Of a DNA stretch of 64,000 nt, positions 22,488 to 64,000 are shown piece after piece; the first letter of the stretch is position 1; the number at the start of each line of letters is the position of its first letter. Origin of the DNA: an uncultured Lachnospiraceae bacterium (GTDB taxonomy: Bacteria; Bacillota; Clostridia; Lachnospirales; Lachnospiraceae). The notes under the pieces are model-generated. The model did no database searches and was not told the DNA's origin. It saw only the letters and a program-made list of their open reading frames with translations. Both the position numbers and the translations under genes were made by a program. The stretch covers positions 79,758-143,757 of the forward strand of contig CANOVJ010000001.1 in the NCBI GenBank assembly GCA_947570615.1. Direction: 5' to 3'.

Positions 22488-22489
22488 GC

Positions 22490-22775
22490 TTCAGGCTGAC
22501 GGTTCCATTGGATATTATGACGATCTCCTTAAAGCTCACAGGCTGATGATGAACGGCCATGTGCCAGAGAACGGAAGATTCCGCTCCGGCGGCGTGGGTG
22601 GCTCTGACGGCAAGGCGCTGATCCACATGGCGCCTCCGGATGAGTTCGTACCGGAACATATTTATAACCTGTTCGCATGGTATCAGCAGTCAGAACTTCA
22701 TCCGCTGATTAAAGCGCTGTTTTCCATTACGAGTTTGAATTCATCCATCCCTTTGCAGATGGGAATGTAACATGG
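22490..22775 (+). pseudogene. Decayed Fic-domain protein gene (left remnant)
   Basis: Translation gives a Fic-family body without its N-terminus: YYDDLLKAHRLMMNGHVPE, then RFRSGGVGG and the HMAPPDEFVPEHIYNLF block. A one- or two-base frameshift near 22713 moves the frame so that VFHYEFEFIHPFADGN continues at 22718-22766, which is the start of the catalytic HPFx[D/E]GNGR motif. The coding sequence breaks off right there (next residues VTWRHL are unrelated), so the AMP-transfer site is incomplete. Fic proteins modify target proteins, often with AMP. This copy is clearly non-functional and marks the left edge of the AT-rich island. Confidence 0.8.
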
Positions 22776-22840
22776 AGACATTTGCAGAAAGCGGCGTAAC
22801 AGCGGCAAACTGCTCTGTACATAAAATTTGCCAGAGAAAA

Positions 22841-22888
22841 ACCAAAAGGGCATTTACGAGATTGTGCGTAAATGCCCTTTTGGTTTGC
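22841..22888. terminator. Strong hairpin terminator upstream of the AAA+/subtilase operon
   Basis: ACCAAAAGGGCATTTACG (22841-22858) pairs perfectly with its complement at 22867-22884 around an 8-base loop. A-run and T-run arms make it work in either direction. It isolates the island promoter from transcription reading through from the pyr genes. Confidence 0.8.
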
Positions 22889-22890
22889 TG

Positions 22891-22914
22891 TTTTTGTCCC
22901 AGTATTGACAAAAA
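22891..22914. promoter_or_regulatory. Perfect inverted repeat over the -35 box of the ATPase/subtilase promoter (putative operator)
   Basis: TTTTTGTC (22891-22898) and GACAAAAA (22907-22914) form an 8-8-8 perfect palindrome. The right arm covers the TTGACA -35 box, an arrangement typical of repressor sites. Confidence 0.55.
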
Positions 22915-22933
22915 TGTCCCAAGGAGTTATGAT
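22905..22933 (+). promoter_or_regulatory. Predicted sigma-A promoter of the ATPase/subtilase operon
   Basis: TTGACA (22905-22910) and TATGAT (22928-22933) are spaced by 17 bp, about 40 bp before the ATPase start codon. Confidence 0.7.
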
Positions 22934-22970
22934 TAGAGTATAGAGAAAAATGAGAAGGAGAGTACGTATC

Positions 22971-24020
22971 ATGAAGAAAAAAAATGTGATAAGCTTAATA
23001 AAATATTATACGGAAAAGAATGATGCGGGCTTTCGGAATGAAGCTTATGAAATCGCTAAAGGATTTGATGCTTCTGGAGATTATCAGCTTTCAGAGTATA
23101 TTATGTCCTTATTGTCCAATGTGAATACGTTTGTACCGCAGATATCGGAGAATGCTTCTCCCTTTTTTGAAAAAATTGGTGGGAAGGAAGATATGCTGTT
23201 ACTTCCGGATGTAATTACCAGTGATTTATTGGGCGTAGTAAATGCAATTGAACATCATATTGGAATTAATAAGTTTTTGTTTCAGGGGGCACCAGGAACA
23301 GGGAAGACGGAGGCAGTTAAGCAACTTGCACGAATATTGAATAGAGAAGTTTTTATGGTGGACTTTTCAGCAGTGATTGATAGTAAGCTGGGACAGACAC
23401 AAAAGAATTTATCTATGTTGTTCAAGGAAATAAATAGTTTCGTTCAACCGAATAAGGTAATAGTTATGTTTGATGAAATCGATGCCTTGGCTTTAGATCG
23501 AACGAATCAGAATGATCTGCGGGAAATGGGACGGGCAACTTCTGCTATGTTGAAGGGATTTGACCGGATGAATGAAAATGTGGTTTTAGTTGCCACAACT
23601 AATCTGTATAAATATTTTGATAAAGCACTAATCAGAAGATTTGATTCAGTCATTGATTTTGATAGATATACCAGGGAAGAGCTTCTTTCGATTTCAGAGA
23701 AAATGTTAGATCAATATCTTGATAAATTAAAGCTGGCAAATAGAGATATCCGCTTGTTCCGTAAAATAATGAAACTAATGCCACAGATACCGTATCCTGG
23801 GGAATTGAAAAATATGATTAAAACGTCTGTTGCATTTAGCAATCCACGTGATGGCATGGACTATTTTAGAAGACTTTACTATGCAGTCTGCAATGAAAAA
23901 CCGGAAGATTTAAAAAAACTTCAGAGCCAGAAATTTACAGTTAGAGAAATAGAAATTCTGGTTGGGAGATCAAAAAGCAGTGTTGCAAGAGATTTGAAAG
24001 AAGGTGTAATGAATGAATAA
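22971..24020 (+). CDS. AAA+ ATPase, IetA-like
   Basis: This 349-residue AAA+ protein has a helical N-terminal region (1-75), a classical AAA core and a small C-terminal helix-turn-helix-like end. Walker A is GAPGTGKT (106-113), Walker B is IVMFDEID (164-171), sensor 1 is ATTN (Asn211) and the predicted arginine finger is Arg222-Arg223. The last 25 residues (EIEILVGRSKSSVARDLKEG) look like a recognition helix. The ATG at 22971 is preceded by GAAGGAGAG. Its stop overlaps the start of a subtilase gene by eight bases. AAA+ ATPase plus subtilase is the make-up of IetAS, first described for plasmid stability/incompatibility in Agrobacterium and later listed as an anti-phage system. Base composition is strikingly AT-rich relative to both flanks, which implies transfer. 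Confidence 0.85.
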   Translation: MKKKNVISLIKYYTEKNDAGFRNEAYEIAKGFDASGDYQLSEYIMSLLSNVNTFVPQISENASPFFEKIGGKEDMLLLPDVITSDLLGVVNAIEHHIGINKFLFQGAPGTGKTEAVKQLARILNREVFMVDFSAVIDSKLGQTQKNLSMLFKEINSFVQPNKVIVMFDEIDALALDRTNQNDLREMGRATSAMLKGFDRMNENVVLVATTNLYKYFDKALIRRFDSVIDFDRYTREELLSISEKMLDQYLDKLKLANRDIRLFRKIMKLMPQIPYPGELKNMIKTSVAFSNPRDGMDYFRRLYYAVCNEKPEDLKKLQSQKFTVREIEILVGRSKSSVARDLKEGVMNE

Positions 24021-26280
24021 CATTTTACAATTAAAAGGAAGATTTGAACAAAGACCTAACAGCTCCAAACCGGGATCTCCGAAACTTCCGAAGGGAAAAA
24101 GTGTGTCTTCGTTCCATCTTATTGAATTATCTGAGCAATTGAAAAGAATTTTTCAATACTGGAAAACAAATACAGATATTAGTGGAGCTCTGGTTAGCGT
24201 ACACTATACACATATTGTTGCAAAGAGTAATAGATTGAAGATTTTGTTGTCTGAGAATAGTAAATCTCCTGCGGAATCTATTAGAGGAGTTAAGTTTATC
24301 TGGGAACCAGACGAGGATGGTAAAGAGATACAAAAACATGTATTTACCCATTATGTTTCGCTTAAAGCGATTGAAAAAGCAATCGAAGTTTTGAGTGAAA
24401 CAATATCTGTTATTGAAAAATATTTTAATGGTATTATTACTGGCGAGGAAACGGAAAAGATCGCAGGGACACCGGCGGATAGATTTAGTGAATTTTATAA
24501 ATCCAATTTTTTAAACGCTGTGGTGGATGGATTTTACGTTGAAAGCTTTGATATTGATCGAGCTACAGAAGAGATAACAGGGGAATCTATTATAACAATT
24601 TATCAGACCGGGATTGAAACGAAGAAATTGTTGTCAAAGTTTGGAATTCATATCGTTGATGAACGTATTATTGATGGCACTACATTAAGACTTAATCCAG
24701 ATGAAGCGAAACTGCTATATAATCGTGCTTCGTATCTGATTGCGATGAGTGTCACTGATTTTTCTCAGCTTACAAGAGACGAGGTGTTGGAGGATAAGGC
24801 GGAGATCAGTAATGAAGAAGGCCTGATACCCCATCCGACCAACGAACCTGTAATAGGAGTTATTGATACACAATTTAATGAAAAGGTGTATTTTCATGAG
24901 TGGGTGGAATATAGAAATTTACTTGATCCGAATATTCCATTGACTGCAAAAGATTATGAGCATGGGACAGAAGTAAGTTATATCATTGTAGATGGTCCGC
25001 AGGGTAATCCGGCACTTGATGATGGGTGTGGCAGATTCCGAGTACGTCATTTTGGTGTTGCAACACATAGAGGTTTCAGTTCATTTACCGTGTTAAAAAT
25101 GATACGAAACATTGTTGCCTTAAACAGGGATATTAAAGTATGGAATTTATCATTGGGTTCCAAACTCGAAATCAAGCCTAATTTTATTTCTCCAGAGGCA
25201 GCAGAACTTGACCGTATACAAAGTGAGTATGATGTTATTTTTGTTGTTGCAGGAACAAATATTCCGGATGGTGAAACAAAAAAGGATATGAAAATTGGAT
25301 CGCCAGCAGATTCACTGAATTCTCTAGTAGTTAATGCTGTAGACTTTAGAGGAAAATCAGCATCTTATACTAGAGTTGGTCCTGTATTATCTTTTTTTCA
25401 TAAGCCTGATATCAGTTATTATGGCGGAGACGGTTCCAACTATAAGGATAAAATGGTTGTATGTCGTGATGATATGGGGGCAGCATATGTAAGCGGAACA
25501 TCATTTGCAGCGCCGTGGATTTCAAGAAAACTGGCATATTTAATTCACATTATGGGACTGAGCAGAGAAGTTGCGAAAGCGTTATTGATTGATGCTGCCG
25601 CGGGATGGAATAGGAAAGATGATGTTTCACATAGTATCGGTTATGGTGTTGTTCCAAAGCATATTAATAATATTATGAAATCATCAAATGATGAGATACG
25701 TTTTATTTTGACTGGTGCATCAGAGGAATATGAGACATATACATATAACCTGCCAGTACCGATTGTAGATAATGCACATCCATTTTATGCAAGAGCAACG
25801 TTAGTATATTTCCCGCAGTGTGATCGTAATCAGGGGGTTGATTATACAAGTACCGAAATGGATATACATTTTGGCAGAGTTGTTGTCGAAAATAGACAAG
25901 CCAGAATAAAATCAATAGATAATAACCAGCAATCGGAAGATAAGTTGATTACCCTTTATGAAGAAGATGCAAGAAAAATGTATCGGAAATGGGATAATAT
26001 CAAGCATATTAGTGAAGAGATTAAAGAAAGAAGAATTCCAAGGAAAGCATATGATTCTGGTCTTTGGGGGCTTAAGATAAATACGAAAGAACGTTTGCAG
26101 AGAAGAAAAGAACCACTTCAATTTGGAGTAGTTGTAACATTGAAGGAAATGAATGGTGTAAATCGCATTGACGATTTTATCAAAATGTGTATGGCGCGTG
26201 GCTGGCTGGTTAATCAGTTGGATATTGAGAACCAGTTGGATGTATATGCGAAGGCAGAAGAAGATATAGTATTCGAGTAA
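24013..26280 (+). CDS. Subtilisin-like serine protease, IetS-like partner of the AAA+ ATPase
   Basis: This is a 755-residue S8 protease without signal peptide or membrane segment, so it acts in the cytoplasm. The first 270 residues are a non-protease region, probably for regulation or ATPase contact. The triad is Asp285 (GVIDTQF), His317 (YEHGTEV) and Ser497 (SGTSFAAP), with Asn416 in VVAGTN as oxyanion-hole candidate, so the protease should be active. A C-terminal region of about 230 residues follows the catalytic domain. The gene overlaps the AAA+ gene by eight bases. By analogy to IetAS, the ATPase may hold the protease in check or feed it substrates, with cell damage upon triggering; that is inference. 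Codons are AT-rich like its partner. Confidence 0.85.
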   Translation: MNNILQLKGRFEQRPNSSKPGSPKLPKGKSVSSFHLIELSEQLKRIFQYWKTNTDISGALVSVHYTHIVAKSNRLKILLSENSKSPAESIRGVKFIWEPDEDGKEIQKHVFTHYVSLKAIEKAIEVLSETISVIEKYFNGIITGEETEKIAGTPADRFSEFYKSNFLNAVVDGFYVESFDIDRATEEITGESIITIYQTGIETKKLLSKFGIHIVDERIIDGTTLRLNPDEAKLLYNRASYLIAMSVTDFSQLTRDEVLEDKAEISNEEGLIPHPTNEPVIGVIDTQFNEKVYFHEWVEYRNLLDPNIPLTAKDYEHGTEVSYIIVDGPQGNPALDDGCGRFRVRHFGVATHRGFSSFTVLKMIRNIVALNRDIKVWNLSLGSKLEIKPNFISPEAAELDRIQSEYDVIFVVAGTNIPDGETKKDMKIGSPADSLNSLVVNAVDFRGKSASYTRVGPVLSFFHKPDISYYGGDGSNYKDKMVVCRDDMGAAYVSGTSFAAPWISRKLAYLIHIMGLSREVAKALLIDAAAGWNRKDDVSHSIGYGVVPKHINNIMKSSNDEIRFILTGASEEYETYTYNLPVPIVDNAHPFYARATLVYFPQCDRNQGVDYTSTEMDIHFGRVVVENRQARIKSIDNNQQSEDKLITLYEEDARKMYRKWDNIKHISEEIKERRIPRKAYDSGLWGLKINTKERLQRRKEPLQFGVVVTLKEMNGVNRIDDFIKMCMARGWLVNQLDIENQLDVYAKAEEDIVFE

Positions 26281-26452
26281 TAATGTCGAAAAATGCATAT
26301 GGAAATAGAAGATAGTTATATGGTAGATCACCTTTTATTTAATGACAGATATCTGCCTGATGGCACCGAATAAATACAAAATATATTTGGATTATTTTGG
26401 GATTGAATTTGGCAAATCCATGGCTGGAAGCTTATTATGGGTAGGGAGATTC

Positions 26453-27517
26453 ATGATGACAGAAGCTTTTTCTGCTGTTCCGGAATTCATGTGGAACAAT
26501 ATTTTCACAGTGATAAACACATTAATCTGTGGGCTGATCGTTGCTTTTTTTACTTCAACCTTTCTCAAGAAGAAGGAGGAGCGTACCCGGATTGCCGGGG
26601 TGATCGTGGAGAAACGGATTAACAGTGAGCAGGACGTGTTGCATTTCTTAGAACATGAGCTATTTAAGGAAGAAATCAATATTGAAAACAGCAGCAAATA
26701 TGATGCGCTTTTTTCAGATGTGTTAAGAACCTATGGACTACCGGATCCGCATGAGGGTCATATTCAGTATGCGCGTATTTTTCTTTCCATAGATCAGTTT
26801 GAACCGTTTTTTCATGCGTTTGAAGAGAAGATTTTGACCCATAAGCTGTGGCTGGATACGAAGGTGAGGACGCATCTGGTGTTTATGCAGATGTATTTCA
26901 GTGTGTTTATCTCGATTCCACTTATGGTGAAGAGAATTCCCCTTCCTAAGGGCAAGGAACTGACGAACGAAGAGTTTGGACATGTCTACAATCAGGTGCT
27001 TCGTCTGCTGGGGATCAGCTGTGATGGTGAGATCAATAGATTTATGTCAGAGCTGGATGAGCTGATTGTGGATTCGGTATATAAGCTGGAGCTGAGACGT
27101 CCGCGAAAGAGTATGATGCGTGACGACATGTACAATGTAGATATGGCAAAATGCCAGAAACGGCTTATGAGAAAAACGATTCTGGGGATGAAGCAAGAAA
27201 ATATTTTTTATCTGGTTATGGATACGGTGTATCAGATTAAGGGCATAGATTTGTCCGGGATGACGGATGAGGAATATGGGAAGTTTGTCAGAGAGACTGA
27301 CCCAGAAGCATATCAGGAAATGCAGGAGAAGCTGCAGGCTTTTAAAGAAAATTTGGAGAAGATGGCGGGAGAAAAGGGGGTAAAAATTGTCAGTAAAAAG
27401 AATCTGGGGAAGTATTATGGACAGTATGGAATTCCACTCAGGGATATTCTGGAGGGGGGAGATATTCAGAAAGTGGATGACTTGGCAGAACGTGATCATA
27501 CAGATGGTATTTCATAA
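26453..27517 (+). CDS. Unrecognised membrane-anchored protein in the IetAS-like island
   Basis: I do not recognise this protein. The frame opens at 26342 (391 residues), but no ribosome site precedes that ATG, whereas AGGGAG lies before the ATGs at 26453 and 26456; the shorter form is 354 residues. It has one hydrophobic segment near its N-terminus (about 18-37, ending in ...FLKKKEE). By the positive-inside rule this leaves a large, helical, charged cytoplasmic domain of about 310 residues. There are no nuclease, protease or nucleotide-binding motifs that I can see. It begins about 170 bp after the subtilase stop on the same strand, with base composition between that of the island and of the host. 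It could be an effector, a sensor or an unrelated cargo gene. Confidence 0.65.
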   Translation: MMTEAFSAVPEFMWNNIFTVINTLICGLIVAFFTSTFLKKKEERTRIAGVIVEKRINSEQDVLHFLEHELFKEEINIENSSKYDALFSDVLRTYGLPDPHEGHIQYARIFLSIDQFEPFFHAFEEKILTHKLWLDTKVRTHLVFMQMYFSVFISIPLMVKRIPLPKGKELTNEEFGHVYNQVLRLLGISCDGEINRFMSELDELIVDSVYKLELRRPRKSMMRDDMYNVDMAKCQKRLMRKTILGMKQENIFYLVMDTVYQIKGIDLSGMTDEEYGKFVRETDPEAYQEMQEKLQAFKENLEKMAGEKGVKIVSKKNLGKYYGQYGIPLRDILEGGDIQKVDDLAERDHTDGIS

Positions 27518-27586
27518 GAACTTGTTTCTGGGACAGGCGAAACTCTGTGTCCAGCCCGGAGATTACCCTTTTGAGTACGTATGACG

Positions 27587-27713
27587 CATGTTTCAAAACT
27601 ATACAATCCGGATATTGCAAGAGTATTTTATTGTGCCGAATATATTGAAGGGCAAGGGGATAATAGAGCGTAAAGGTGGTAAACGATACGGCTATTGGGA
27701 AATTTGTGAATAG
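27587..27713 (+). pseudogene. Remnant of an ATP-binding transcriptional regulator/RecG-like (COG2865-type) gene
   Basis: One frame (27587-27673) reads HVSKLYNPDIARVFYCAEYI, like the 'NPxIAxVFyxAGYIExWGRG' block of AlbA/HATPase_c_4 proteins. A second frame (27663-27713) reads IERKGGKRYGYWEICE then stop, like their C-terminal winged-helix end. The two pieces are out of frame and the middle is deleted. Similar remnants occur at 62476-62786. Confidence 0.6.
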
Positions 27714-27725
27714 CTTTTTATTCCC

Positions 27726-27824
27726 ATCATACCATTCCCGGACGGCAACGGTCGTATGGGGCGGATGTGGCACAGCCTCCTGCCCGGCAAGTGGAACGAC
27801 CAGGCGACTTCTCTTCGCGCCCGG
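27726..27824 (+). pseudogene. Remnant of a Fic-domain gene (right remnant)
   Basis: The frame reads IIPFPDGNGRMGRMWHSLL then PGKWND, the catalytic Fic motif [I/V]HPFxDGNGRxxR with the motif His changed to Ile, followed by an early stop at 27822-27824. Only about 30 codons remain. The DNA differs from the left remnant over the shared motif, so the two pieces came from different fic genes. It marks the right edge of the AT-rich island. Confidence 0.7.
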
Positions 27825-27903
27825 TGATGAAACGTTATCGGTTACTGAGCTTATTTAATTGTATGATCTCCTCCTCCGGGCATAAATTCCCTCCCCCCCA
27901 CAT

Positions 27904-60450: not shown

Positions 60451-62151
60451 ATGACAGATCGGGAAAGAGCCATTTCAGATGATTTTTATGATATTATCAC
60501 GGATTTTATCCTGCCGGGAGGAGTGGAGGTCAATCCGGCCAACGCGGCCATCCAGCCGGTGGGCGGAGATATCAGGATCATATACTTAAGCCGGGCGGAG
60601 GTGGAGGCCGTAAATATCAGCAATTTCACCTACCCGGTGATTCCGAAGCTGTACGGGCTGATGCAGCAGGAGAGCTTTGACCCCTCGGCGCTGATCAGCA
60701 GCGGAATCAGCCGGGTGCAGGGAGGGAGCCTGAACCTCACGGGAAGAGGTGTGGTCGTAGGGTTTATCGATACCGGGATCCGCTATGAGGAGGAGGTATT
60801 CCGCAGAGAGGACGGGAGCTCCCGCATTCTGGGCATCTGGGATCAGACCATACAGACCGGGGAGCCTCCGGCAGGGATTCTTTACGGGACGGAATACCGT
60901 CAGGATGTCATCAATCTGGCGCTTCGGAGTGAAAATCCCGGGGAGATTGTGCCGAGCACGGATACGGACGGGCATGGGACCGCTCTTGCCAGCGTGGCGG
61001 CGGGGAGCTCGCTGGGGGGCGGGAGGCGCTTTCAGGGCGCCGCGCCGGAGGCGGATATTGTGATGGTGAAGCTTCGTCAGGCGAAGCCCCATCTGAAGGA
61101 TTTCTATCTGGTGTCCCAGGATACCCAGGCTTACGCGGAGAGCGATATTCTGGTGGCGCTGCGCTATCTGGAGAGCTTTGCCGTTACGCTGGTAAGACCG
61201 CTGGTGATCTGTTTCGGGCTGGGAACCAATATGGGCGGCCATGAGGGCCAGTCCGTGCTTTCCAATTATCTGAATCAGATTGCCACCAGACGCAGCCGGG
61301 CGGTGATCGTGTGCGGGGGAAACGAGGGAAATGCGGCCCATCACTACTGGGGAAGATCCATCGAAGGGCTCTCTGAGACCGTTGACAATGTGGAGATCCG
61401 GGTGGACGGGAACCAGCAGGGATTTGTGGCGGAGCTGTGGGGGAGTGTGCCCGCCAAGCATGCCATCTCCATTCGCACGCCGGGAGGCGAGGTCACACCC
61501 AAAGTGGACTTCAGAGAGCAGAGAAGCCGGGAGTTTATCTTTATTTATGAGCAGGCCAGGGTGCAGGTGGATCACGTGCTGGTGGAGCAGAGCTCCGGGG
61601 AGGAGCTGATCTTCTTCCGGTTCATCACGCCCACACCGGGGGTGTGGACCATTCAGGTGACCATCACCGGAGGAAGCGCCCAGAACTGCTTTCATATGTG
61701 GCTGCCTCTTACGGAGTTTTTGCAGGGCGACACTTATTTTCTGCGGCCCTCGCCCTATACCACCCTGACCGAGCCGGCCAATGCCAGGGAGGTGATCACC
61801 GTCACCACCTACAACGATGAAAACGGAAGCTTCTGGGCGGAATCGGGGCGCGGCTATTCACGGACCGGGCGGGTGAAGCCGGATCTGTGCGCGCCGGGCG
61901 TGAATATCAGTACCATACTCGGCCCGCGGACCGGCTCAAGTATGGCGGTGGCCCTGACCTCGGGAGCATCCGCCCTGTTTCTGGAATGGGCGGTGGTGCG
62001 CCGCAATCAGACCAGGGTGGAGAGCCGGGAGCTGAAAAATTATCTGATCCGGGGAGCGAACCGGAAGCCGGGGGAGAGCTATCCCAGCCGGGAGTGGGGC
62101 TACGGAACGCTGGATATCGGAGGAACCTTTGACGAGCTGGCGGGGGTGTGA
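60451..62151 (+). CDS. Subtilisin-like S8 peptidase (clostridial Csp-like type)
   Basis: This 566-residue protease has no signal peptide. The triad is Asp107 (GFIDTGI), His175 (DGHGTAL) and Ser497 (TGSSMAV, in place of the more usual GTSxA), so activity is expected. Between His and Ser is a long insertion (about 325-440) with beta-rich character, the 'jellyroll'-containing layout of clostridial Csp germination proteases. The N-terminal 90 residues may be a prodomain. Csp proteins process the cortex hydrolase SleC in spores, but other family members exist, so a role in germination is only a possibility here. It lies 60 bp after the ClpX-like gene on the same strand. Confidence 0.88.
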   Translation: MTDRERAISDDFYDIITDFILPGGVEVNPANAAIQPVGGDIRIIYLSRAEVEAVNISNFTYPVIPKLYGLMQQESFDPSALISSGISRVQGGSLNLTGRGVVVGFIDTGIRYEEEVFRREDGSSRILGIWDQTIQTGEPPAGILYGTEYRQDVINLALRSENPGEIVPSTDTDGHGTALASVAAGSSLGGGRRFQGAAPEADIVMVKLRQAKPHLKDFYLVSQDTQAYAESDILVALRYLESFAVTLVRPLVICFGLGTNMGGHEGQSVLSNYLNQIATRRSRAVIVCGGNEGNAAHHYWGRSIEGLSETVDNVEIRVDGNQQGFVAELWGSVPAKHAISIRTPGGEVTPKVDFREQRSREFIFIYEQARVQVDHVLVEQSSGEELIFFRFITPTPGVWTIQVTITGGSAQNCFHMWLPLTEFLQGDTYFLRPSPYTTLTEPANAREVITVTTYNDENGSFWAESGRGYSRTGRVKPDLCAPGVNISTILGPRTGSSMAVALTSGASALFLEWAVVRRNQTRVESRELKNYLIRGANRKPGESYPSREWGYGTLDIGGTFDELAGV

Positions 62152-62786: not shown

Positions 62787-63006
62787 TACTGATTTCAATG
62801 TACTCGGCAATCCGGCGGAACTCGTCCGCAAACTTGAAATGAACGCTGATATTGCCGTTTTCGTAAATCAGCCGGGCCGGCACATCCGCAAGCCCGGCGG
62901 CCTGTCGTTCATAATCGGCTTTCATATCCCGGTATTCCTGTCGGGTGATTTCCCCGTCTTTCCAATCTTGATACAGTGACTGCCTGTAGCGGGTGATTTT
63001 CGTCAA
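62758..63006 (-). pseudogene. Remnant of a large serine recombinase (DUF4368-type C-terminus)
   Basis: An 82-codon frame reads ITRYRQSLYQDWKDGEITRQ with EYRDMKADYERQA, then jumps to LIYENGNISVHFKFADEFRR and IAEYIE. These two blocks belong to the C-terminal region of Tn-type site-specific serine recombinases, normally separated by about 60 residues that are missing here. The resolvase catalytic domain is absent. It is the scar of a mobile element. Confidence 0.7.
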
Positions 63007-63075
63007 TTCCTTTTCCTTTTAGGTGATACTATGCGCTCAAAAATTCTTTGTGGGTTTTGGAGAATGGATGGCTGA

Positions 63076-63441
63076 AACGGAAGAAGTAGTCGTTCATTTA
63101 GAGGGGCTTATCAATCATATAACAGAGACGCAATATTTGAGTTAAAATATTATGATTATTTATTATACGATTTAAAAGAATCAGAGCGACCGAATATACG
63201 TTTGTATCATATATTATTTGATCAAAAAACATTAATGGATTATAGGTTTAAATATTTGGAAACATTAAAAGAACAATTTGATCCGGATAAAATGCAAAAG
63301 CTTATTACTATGAATACACAATTGATTGGTGATTCATTAGAACTGCGAAATTGCGCTTTGAAATATAATTCAGGTCATAGTGCTAAGGCATACAGCAGAG
63401 TAGAAAACAGGATAAAAAATTTAAAAAGAGTTAGAACTTAA
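63076..63441 (+). pseudogene. Unidentified C-terminal protein fragment before the ABC transporter
   Basis: The frame is open from just after a TGA (63073-63075) to the TAA at 63441, with no ATG and no ribosome site at its left end. An internal TTG at 63202 is the only simple start (79 residues). The sequence is AT-rich, Tyr/Leu/Lys-rich and protein-like (DAIFELKYYDYLLYDLKESE; later MNTQLIGDSLELRNCALKYN). I do not recognise it. It ends 14 bp before the ABC exporter start, so the intact ancestor was probably part of the same operon. Confidence 0.45.
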
Positions 63442-63455
63442 TTTAGGAGAGGAAA

Positions 63456-64000
63456 ATGAAGAAAGTACGTTTTGAGAAGAAAAAGTATACATATTTGGAT
63501 TCCCTGAGATTTTCTATAATCAGTTCACCTGTGTGTACGATATTGTATTTGATTCTGTCTCTTGCTGTTGCAATTCTGCCAACCTGCCAGGTTATTATTA
63601 ATGCAAGATTTATTGATAATGCGCTGGGACTTATAGACGGCTCCGCGACAAAAAGAGCGGTATATATTTCACTGGCGATTGTTATCGGGATTATAGCATA
63701 TCAATGGCTTGTTGAGCCCATAAAGGCATATCTTGCCAACAAAATCGAGATGGATATGCGGGTCAGTCTTAAGGGCGCATATGTTGAAAAATGTTCAAAG
63801 ATTGAGTTTAAGTATGTCGAAAATACGGACAGTATAGATTTAATGAACCGTATTGCAGACACAATGGAACATAAGTTTATAGACGGTTTTGCAAATGTGA
63901 TCAATCTGATATCGCTGTTTATGACAATTGCGGGACTTCTTATTATCCTTATTACACAGATTGCCTGGGTTGCACTGATTATTATAGCTGTTGCCATACC
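63456..64000 (+). CDS. ABC exporter (membrane-ATPase half-transporter), N-terminal part
   Basis: The gene runs off the right edge. The 181 visible residues start at the ATG at 63456, preceded by TAGGAGAGG. After a basic tail they contain hydrophobic segments at about 28-48, 65-85 and 150-175, separated by the cytoplasmic stretch MDMRVSLKGAYVEKCSKIEF, which matches the first intracellular helix of type IV (exporter) ABC transmembrane domains. The ATPase domain must lie beyond the window. The AT-rich composition and the recombinase scar next to it suggest that it belongs to transferred DNA, perhaps a peptide or bacteriocin export locus, but that is a guess. Confidence 0.7.
   Translation, partial: MKKVRFEKKKYTYLDSLRFSIISSPVCTILYLILSLAVAILPTCQVIINARFIDNALGLIDGSATKRAVYISLAIVIGIIAYQWLVEPIKAYLANKIEMDMRVSLKGAYVEKCSKIEFKYVENTDSIDLMNRIADTMEHKFIDGFANVINLISLFMTIAGLLIILITQIAWVALIIIAVAI

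Follow-up and report, generated by a model that had tools for sequence, protein, structure and literature searches.

A divergent IetAS-like ATPase and subtilase pair in a small cassette interrupting a Fic gene of an uncultured Lachnospiraceae bacterium

Gene pairs in which an AAA+ ATPase gene is followed by an S8 subtilase gene, named IetAS in PADLOC and IteAS in NCBIfam (NF042959, NF042956), are labelled as anti-phage in NCBIfam and included in PADLOC. The founding function of IetAS is plasmid maintenance. A comparable pair, SgiAT, is carried by an integrated mobile element, the Salmonella Genomic Island 1 (SGI1); in its published description the AAA protein acts as antitoxin to the S8 toxin, SgiA neutralises SgiT in Escherichia coli, the pair is likened to IetAS of pTiC58, its founding function is the maintenance of the island, and its regulation was yet to be identified (PMC5006074). 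According to a 2023 article, the mechanism of ietAS had still to be described (PMC9958689). With regard to mobile elements, a review reports that TndX of Tn5397 integrates in Fic-coding DNA and that its targets invariably contain a central GA (PMC4430133). Here, a pair of the IetAS kind is described in a 64,000-nucleotide stretch of DNA (the window) from an uncultured Lachnospiraceae bacterium (contig CANOVJ010000001.1). It is proposed, with a probability of roughly 60%, that the two genes form a divergent IetAS-type toxin/antitoxin module, autoregulated by IetA and carried as cargo of a small recombinase-less cassette from TndX-type elements. The gene pair is of a known kind; the novelty lies in the conserved operator and in a vehicle that has a Fic target and carries exchangeable cargo. 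No paper listed by the literature searches, whose coverage left out most subscription papers, was seen to link Fic or TndX sites with IetAS or with defence cassettes.

The open reading frames and the 8-bp overlap given by an earlier sequence-only reading of this DNA hold (22971-24020 and 24013-26280; Table 1), and so does its assignment of the pair to the IetAS kind. IetA matches Pfam AAA (E 5.8e-25) and PADLOC IetA (PDLC02196, E 2.4e-37) over residues 107-351 of a 356-residue reading, that is, over the ATPase core. IetS matches Pfam Peptidase_S8 (PF00082, E 1.1e-30, residues 278-545) and PADLOC IetS (PDLC02197, E 5.3e-64, residues 225-743), with the catalytic Asp, His and Ser intact. The best-fitting profiles are two unnamed phage families, PHROG 3757 for IetA (226.7 bits, residues 8-351 of the 356-residue reading) and PHROG 3964 for IetS (410.8 bits). 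The start of ietA is placed at ATG 22971, with AGAAGGAGAG immediately 5′ of it; a further in-frame ATG lies upstream at 22950. The order ATPase-protease, with ietA directly upstream of ietS, is found in 85 of 87 loci, the remaining two being L080, which is cut by a contig end, and L107; the overlap measures 8 bp in 52 of the 85 loci in which ietA was found.

In alignments from which near-duplicates were removed by hand (A2, holding 70 of 85 usable rows for IetS; A3, holding 63 of 82 for IetA), Asp285, His317, Ser497 and Asn416 are invariant in 70/70 IetS sequences. Equally invariant across the 63 IetA sequences are G106, P108, G109, G111, K112 and T113, which we take to be Walker A, D168/E169 and N211, presumably Walker B and sensor-1, and R222/R223. 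The motifs and catalytic residues previously called intact in both proteins are confirmed. Since no strong hydrophobic segment is found by hydropathy in either protein, IetA and IetS are both likely cytoplasmic, as had been said of the subtilase. The observation that the first 270 residues of IetS have no recognised fold also stands: this part has no Pfam domain and no match among solved structures (best E 0.33). It is the least conserved part of the protein (mean majority frequency 0.545 vs 0.741 for residues 271-560) and it holds the invariant residues Y65, K71, S72, R74, G92, F95, H109 and D172. Because PHROG 3964 spans residues 2-746, the N-terminal region can be taken as part of the family architecture; its conservation is consistent with a role in specificity and is no proof of one. 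In terms of composition, ietA (35.5% GC) and ietS (36.7%) contrast with the flanking part of pyrD (57.5%) and the sipL-like gene (54.9%). The AT-rich island of the sequence-only reading is thus real, with the lowest-GC 3310-bp stretch of the window beginning at 23101, and only its extent has to be corrected, since it continues to about 27740 and includes a third gene.

Because the SgiAT and IetAS experiments are in print, IetS is regarded here as the putative toxin and IetA as the putative antitoxin of the pair. A different role is conceivable and, in our estimate, rather unlikely: IetA would be a Clp-like unfoldase feeding IetS, and the pair an ATP-dependent protease, not a toxin/antitoxin. 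The combination of an AAA+ protein with a protease is the architecture such a machine would have, and among solved structures the IetA profile is best matched by Cdc48/AFG2-type ATPases. The neutralisation of SgiT by SgiA in E. coli (PMC5006074) argues for the antitoxin, and both roles could coexist.

The pair is contained in a cassette of about 5 kb (22758-27740) with att-like ends that lies inside a broken Fic gene. Both ends share the sequence GAYGGNAA, at 22758 and 27741, and this GA-containing core corresponds to the codons for Asp, Gly and Asn in HPFxDGN, the Fic motif. At the Fic relic on the left, HPFADGN is readable in another frame, and after 27740 Fic-like coding resumes, by eye, with DGNGRMGRMW. 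A similar left end (LE) was found in 11 of 397 genomes of the family (two candidates scored per genome), in two of them by 21 bases only and in some places without IetAS; a search on plasmids gave no LE match. Of the 15 LE copies that have the terminal core, 12 interrupt a Fic gene at one codon, immediately after the codons for HPFx. The Pfam Fic cut-off is reached before the cut in 11 of these 12 junctions (L054, with 13.0 bits, is below it); in ten of them the match stops at position 80-81 of the 93-position profile, and in the frame-shifted relic of the window it stops at 72. The 15 junctions leave out LE copies without terminal core (L182, L052, L066, G703), IetAS copies without LE (L055, L065, L059, L069), the 21-base matches in G004 and G381, and matches to the hairpin only.

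This concentration at one codon bears on how the cassette reached its place. Homologous recombination between Fic genes, instead of site-specific integration, would find some support in the older Fic-like tails nested in certain cassettes and in the possibility of more than one interrupted Fic gene per genome. In the window, such a tail remnant lies behind ietS, and in L031 the same tail sequence closes a longer open reading frame that is Fic-like by eye, which suggests a trace of an earlier insertion and hence nested insertions. We nevertheless judge recombination between Fic genes very unlikely. The interrupted genes differ widely in sequence before the cut, yet 12 of 15 junctions fall at the same codon; a TndX-type gene ends exactly where Fic resumes in two genomes; and TndX itself targets Fic DNA with a central GA (PMC4430133).

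Those two genomes connect the cassette with TndX-type elements. In G035, a one-contig genome, an LE of 80% identity at C1:1544844 is followed, about 66 kb further on, by a gene for a 537-residue large serine recombinase (Resolvase, Recombinase, Zn-ribbon and DUF4368 domains), which ends exactly where the Fic-like frame resumes. The same arrangement extends over about 70 kb in G013:C19, with a recombinase 91% identical to that of G035 and a second recombinase gene inside the interval; each of the two intervals is probably a single element. Over 99% of its length, the G035 recombinase shares 71.6% identity with proteins annotated as TndX on Enterococcus plasmids, and the other recombinases compared (25 of 35 places, those with loci) reach at most 38% identity to it. 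Because the left ends are similar, the window cassette is linked to these elements, most likely as a remnant or cis-mobilisable derivative. With Tn5397, as described in print, it shares the insertion in Fic-coding DNA with a GA core (PMC4430133); it differs in its small size, in the lack of a recombinase and in that no transfer genes were seen. Its attL- and attR-like ends and its lack of recombination and transfer genes recall a cis-mobilisable element (CIME), and it may likewise be moved by a related integrative and conjugative element.

The position is an exchange place for defence-like cargo, because different cargo is found behind the same LE. In the sister cassette L032 (= L058), the space between ietS and the right end (RE) is occupied by DUF6414 and ClpA-like AAA genes, which match PADLOC DolA (2.1e-73) and DolB (3.5e-123) and thus represent Dodola; L057 carries the same stretch with 94% identity, and in the window Dodola is absent and replaced by gene 3. 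Behind LE copies without IetAS there are AbiEi/AbiEii (L178, and L182 with a truncated LE) and a C5-methylase with a DUF262-like NsnA match (L175, on contig C71 of the own genome). The LE of L181, which is not in a Fic gene, is followed by a PDC-M62A/B pair. Genes resembling those of plasmids or of integrative and conjugative elements are seen by eye in L176, L177 and L180, while L179 and L183 end too early.

Such cargo is relevant to the question of what the module is for. A function in addiction or stabilisation only, keeping mobile elements in place with any phage effect being incidental, is a real possibility, to which we give appreciably less than even odds. It would agree with the founding functions of IetAS and SgiAT in plasmid and island maintenance, with the module being cargo of an integrated cassette, and with the presence of relatives on plasmids (54 records). 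On the other hand, the Dodola, AbiE and methylase pairs behind the same left end are defence-like, and the family itself has an entry in PADLOC and an anti-phage name in NCBIfam. Since AbiE is also able to stabilise elements, the defence-like cargo fails to separate defence from addiction.

The distribution of the pair is patchy. Matches to IetS were found in 25 of 299 same-family genomes, the own genome included; by count of the places listed, 16 full-length copies lie in 15 of them. Within the genus 6 of 37 genomes have a match: besides the own genome, two full-length copies (44% identical) and three partial ones. Relatives are also encoded on 26 viral-contig stretches, and matches occur in 10 phage and 54 plasmid records. 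Nearly identical copies occur in two other genera (G273, G013), in which IetS is 98% identical and PyrD only 80% and 71% identical, respectively, to that of the window. The DNA in common runs from 22721/22757 to near 26349, with a further stretch to 26409. The location of these 98% identical copies in Fic genes of other genera suggests past movement. The sipL-like gene was found in 11 of 12 congeners searched, and in all 11 it neighbours pyrK-pyrD, with ietA, ietS and gene 3 missing. The spacer that separates it from pyrD measures 61-117 bp in eight of them; two others have 512 and 552 bp, and one has about 3.2 kb. The own genome has instead an inserted block from just after pyrD to about 27870, including two Fic gene fragments. 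These comparisons make the ietA-ietS pair a recent arrival. The sequence-only reading had named two findings that would speak against its interpretation, a lack of similarity to IetA/IetS and a conserved housekeeping context in related genomes; the PADLOC matches and the 11 congeners without the pair are the opposite. Loci that keep only pieces of a close IetS relative and no full gene (L030/L048 in G273:C121, L017 in G029:C82, L020/L029 in G251:C110) are a sign that the module is also lost. As a separate observation, the 512- and 552-bp spacers (L258, L260) differ from those of most other congeners in resembling inverted-repeat inserts and are perhaps small mobile elements.

Upstream of ietA, two direct copies of TGTCCCA, 20 or 21 bp apart start to start (spacer 13 or 14), flank the -35 box of a predicted promoter. 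Allowing at most two mismatches in 14, the pair of repeats is present in 80 of 81 loci, 46 of them perfect; among the controls it occurs in 0 of 81 reverse-complement sequences and in 4 of 4050 obtained by Markov resampling. The loci are related, and the 80 are not independent events; six of the 87 loci were left out, having less than 200 bp upstream or N. In a separate count of exact repeats, 47 of the 84 loci used have both copies exact (L080, L114 and L131 are too short). The repeat is kept while the identity of IetA falls to 49% and the distance to the gene varies. The exact pattern occurs once in the own genome, at ietA, and seven times in eight genomes, five of these at ietA. The other two, at G106:C6 and G042:C196, have unlike spacers and do not exceed background, since a reversed control pattern also gives two hits. 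At the protein level, the IetA C-terminus FTVREIEILVGRSKSSVARDLKE contains R325, S336 and R340, invariant in 63/63 sequences, and the nearly invariant T323, E326 and I327, in a segment that looks, by eye, like a helix-turn-helix. The copy on a Carnobacterium plasmid keeps both this segment and the operator, with one mismatch. In two Macrococcoides relatives the C-terminal segment is different and the operator missing, and one Acidovorax iteA inspected has neither this clade's segment nor the operator. This comparison points to IetA as a putative repressor, and the TGTCCCA repeat is likely an autoregulatory operator. In this the clade differs from SgiAT as described, whose regulation was not yet identified (PMC5006074). 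The hairpin at 22839-22886 could insulate the operon from transcription of the Fic gene.

It is doubtful, in our view, that the repeat is bound by a regulator other than IetA, encoded by the host or by the element. Such a regulator would be compatible with the support for the operator being conservation among related loci. Against it, the single exact occurrence in the own genome sits before ietA, the repeat travels with the operon into distant hosts and onto the Carnobacterium plasmid, and it is missing in the Macrococcoides relatives with a differing C-terminal segment, which are two related cases only.

Autoregulation by IetA can be combined with the putative toxin and antitoxin roles in a simple scheme. 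IetS, a subtilase predicted to be cytoplasmic, would be harmful when free, and the AAA+ ATPase IetA would hold it in check. Through its helix-turn-helix-like segment, IetA would at the same time act at the TGTCCCA direct repeat and repress the promoter that both genes share. Once IetA is upset, by a phage or by loss of the operon, IetS would be both freed and derepressed and the cell or the phage stopped. The toxin and antitoxin roles, repression by IetA, mobilisation by TndX and defence against phages are the parts that we infer, while the genes with their motifs and family match, the left end with its Fic target, the exchange of cargo and the conservation of the operator are observed. The cassette would have spread as a CIME-like deletion derivative of TndX-type elements, or have been moved by them in trans. 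A wider and more tentative reading, which we hold slightly less probable than not, is that Fic genes are a standing dock for exchangeable, recombinase-less anti-phage cassettes deposited by TndX-type elements, and that, the antitoxin IetA being itself the repressor, its diversion would derepress the operon and unleash the protease. If true, this would join the preference of TndX for Fic DNA with the gap in the regulation of ietAS/sgiAT-type modules. For the IetAS kind, the cassette supplies a definite vehicle in gut Clostridia: its left end is fixed to the base, its target is defined, and different defence-like genes stand behind one left end. The conserved operator-like motif makes the regulation of ietAS/sgiAT-type modules open to a simple binding and reporter test.

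Several points weigh against the proposed module and vehicle. The NCBIfam equivalog cut-offs (NF042959/NF042956 pair) are missed by far, with 103.8 of 510 bits for IteA and 158.5 of 900 for IteS; the pair is therefore filed as a divergent clade of the IetAS kind and not as an IteAS equivalog, and IetAS-like is the right strength of wording. No recombinase is found among the cassette genes (22758-27740), none of the four PF07508 recombinases detected in the own genome, which is 94.8% complete, exceeds 32% identity to TndX, and the right end of the cassette differs from that of both TndX intervals. Three of the 15 LE copies (L056, L179, L181) are outside a recognised Fic gene, the stretch before the LE having no Pfam Fic match in L181 and being too short for Pfam in L056 and L179, and close IetAS copies exist with a truncated LE (L052, L066) or without it (L055, L065). 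The RE, present also at G000:C74 and G392:C73, has a Fic-like frame behind it, by eye, in G000:C74, L057, L058 and the window; it is degenerate in L054, not seen in L053, and not followed by Fic in G392:C73. The Fic C-halves score 17.7 and 17.6 bits (cut-off 24), and that of G035 has no match; their recognition rests on the DGNGR motif and reading by eye, because they hold only the last dozen Pfam positions. The operator, as said, is absent from the two Macrococcoides relatives and the Acidovorax iteA. Finally, the neighbourhood survey for defence genes that the sequence-only reading had proposed revealed neither a constant partner nor a clear surplus of defence genes close to the loci as against farther away; it covered 80 loci, the best 80 of 447 relatives confirmed in a pattern-based scan of genome contigs. 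In this survey, 138 nearest and 97 farther open reading frames were compared with PADLOC, and the nearest also with Pfam (one nearest frame of more than 900 residues was dropped); the highest family counts were 4/138 for DolA, the own cargo of the cassettes, and 4/97 for mad3. Fixed defence neighbours of IetAS were accordingly rejected, no enrichment being claimable from per-family counts.

Table 1. Positions in the window of the pair, its upstream signals, the cassette ends and the Fic remnants.
Feature	Position	Strand	Description
Fic N-side relic	22489..22757	+	frame-shifted, ends in HPFA codons before the cassette; PF02661 28.9 bits (cut-off 24) on 22489-22755
Left end (LE, attL-like)	22758..22894	+	begins at core GATGGGAATG; 96% identical to L031/L032 from 22721/22757
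Terminator-like hairpin	22839..22886	+	20-bp stem and T run; -33.1 kcal/mol, z -8.8
Operator-like direct repeat TGTCCCA-N13-TGTCCCA	22895..22921	+	80/81 loci with at most 2 mismatches in 14
Promoter TTGACA-17-TATGAT, predicted	22905..22933	+	11/12 consensus bases; -35 between the two operator halves
ietA-like gene	22971..24020	+	AAA+ ATPase, 349 aa, C-terminal helix-turn-helix-like segment; PADLOC IetA PDLC02196 2.4e-37, PHROG 3757 226.7 bits
ietS-like gene	24013..26280	+	S8 subtilase, 755 aa, without membrane segment by hydropathy; PF00082, PADLOC PDLC02197, PHROG 3964
Older Fic C-terminal tail remnant TDICLMAPNKYKIYLDYFGIE	26343..26409	+	88-89% DNA identity to L031/L032
Gene 3	26453..27517	+	354 aa, one predicted membrane segment (hydropathy), rare; start chosen by eye, GGTAGGGAG upstream
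Right end (RE, attR-like)	27610..27740	+	decayed open reading frame tail and ...TACCATTCCC; 79-90% identity to right end of L032/L058
Fic C-side relic	27741..27829	+	DGNGRMGRMWHSLLPGKWNDQAT...; by eye

The sequence-only reading was correct in the genes and in the kind of system, and it had missed the mobile cassette, the Fic target, the operator and the third gene. The latter, searched as the frame 26342-27514, gives weak matches below the cut-offs in Pfam and NCBIfam and none in PADLOC and PHROG. It occurs in the own genome and in five others of 299, in those five weakly or partially. Gene 3 was considered as a conserved partner of IetAS and rejected, being rare and not found behind ietS in the 98% identical L031 and L032. 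Fragments of it are also seen behind ietS in L052 (10276-10452).

The own genome has a second LE in another Fic gene, that of L175 (G000:C71:3489-3586), where the methylase and DUF262-like genes are accompanied by a helix-turn-helix gene, and a second RE (L184, G000:C74:19998-20075) with a Fic-like C-half at the contig edge; the two may bound one element. On plasmid p1-T1 of Acidovorax sp. T1 (L271), iteA-iteS lie between genes for a site-specific integrase and a Shedu nuclease, beside IS21. Elsewhere in the window, 60451-62151 encodes a second subtilase-like protein of 566 residues, by eye of another type and unrelated to the present finding, and a further AT-rich stretch (34% GC) at the edge, 63001-64000, holds an open reading frame that is ABC-transporter-like by eye and runs off the end.

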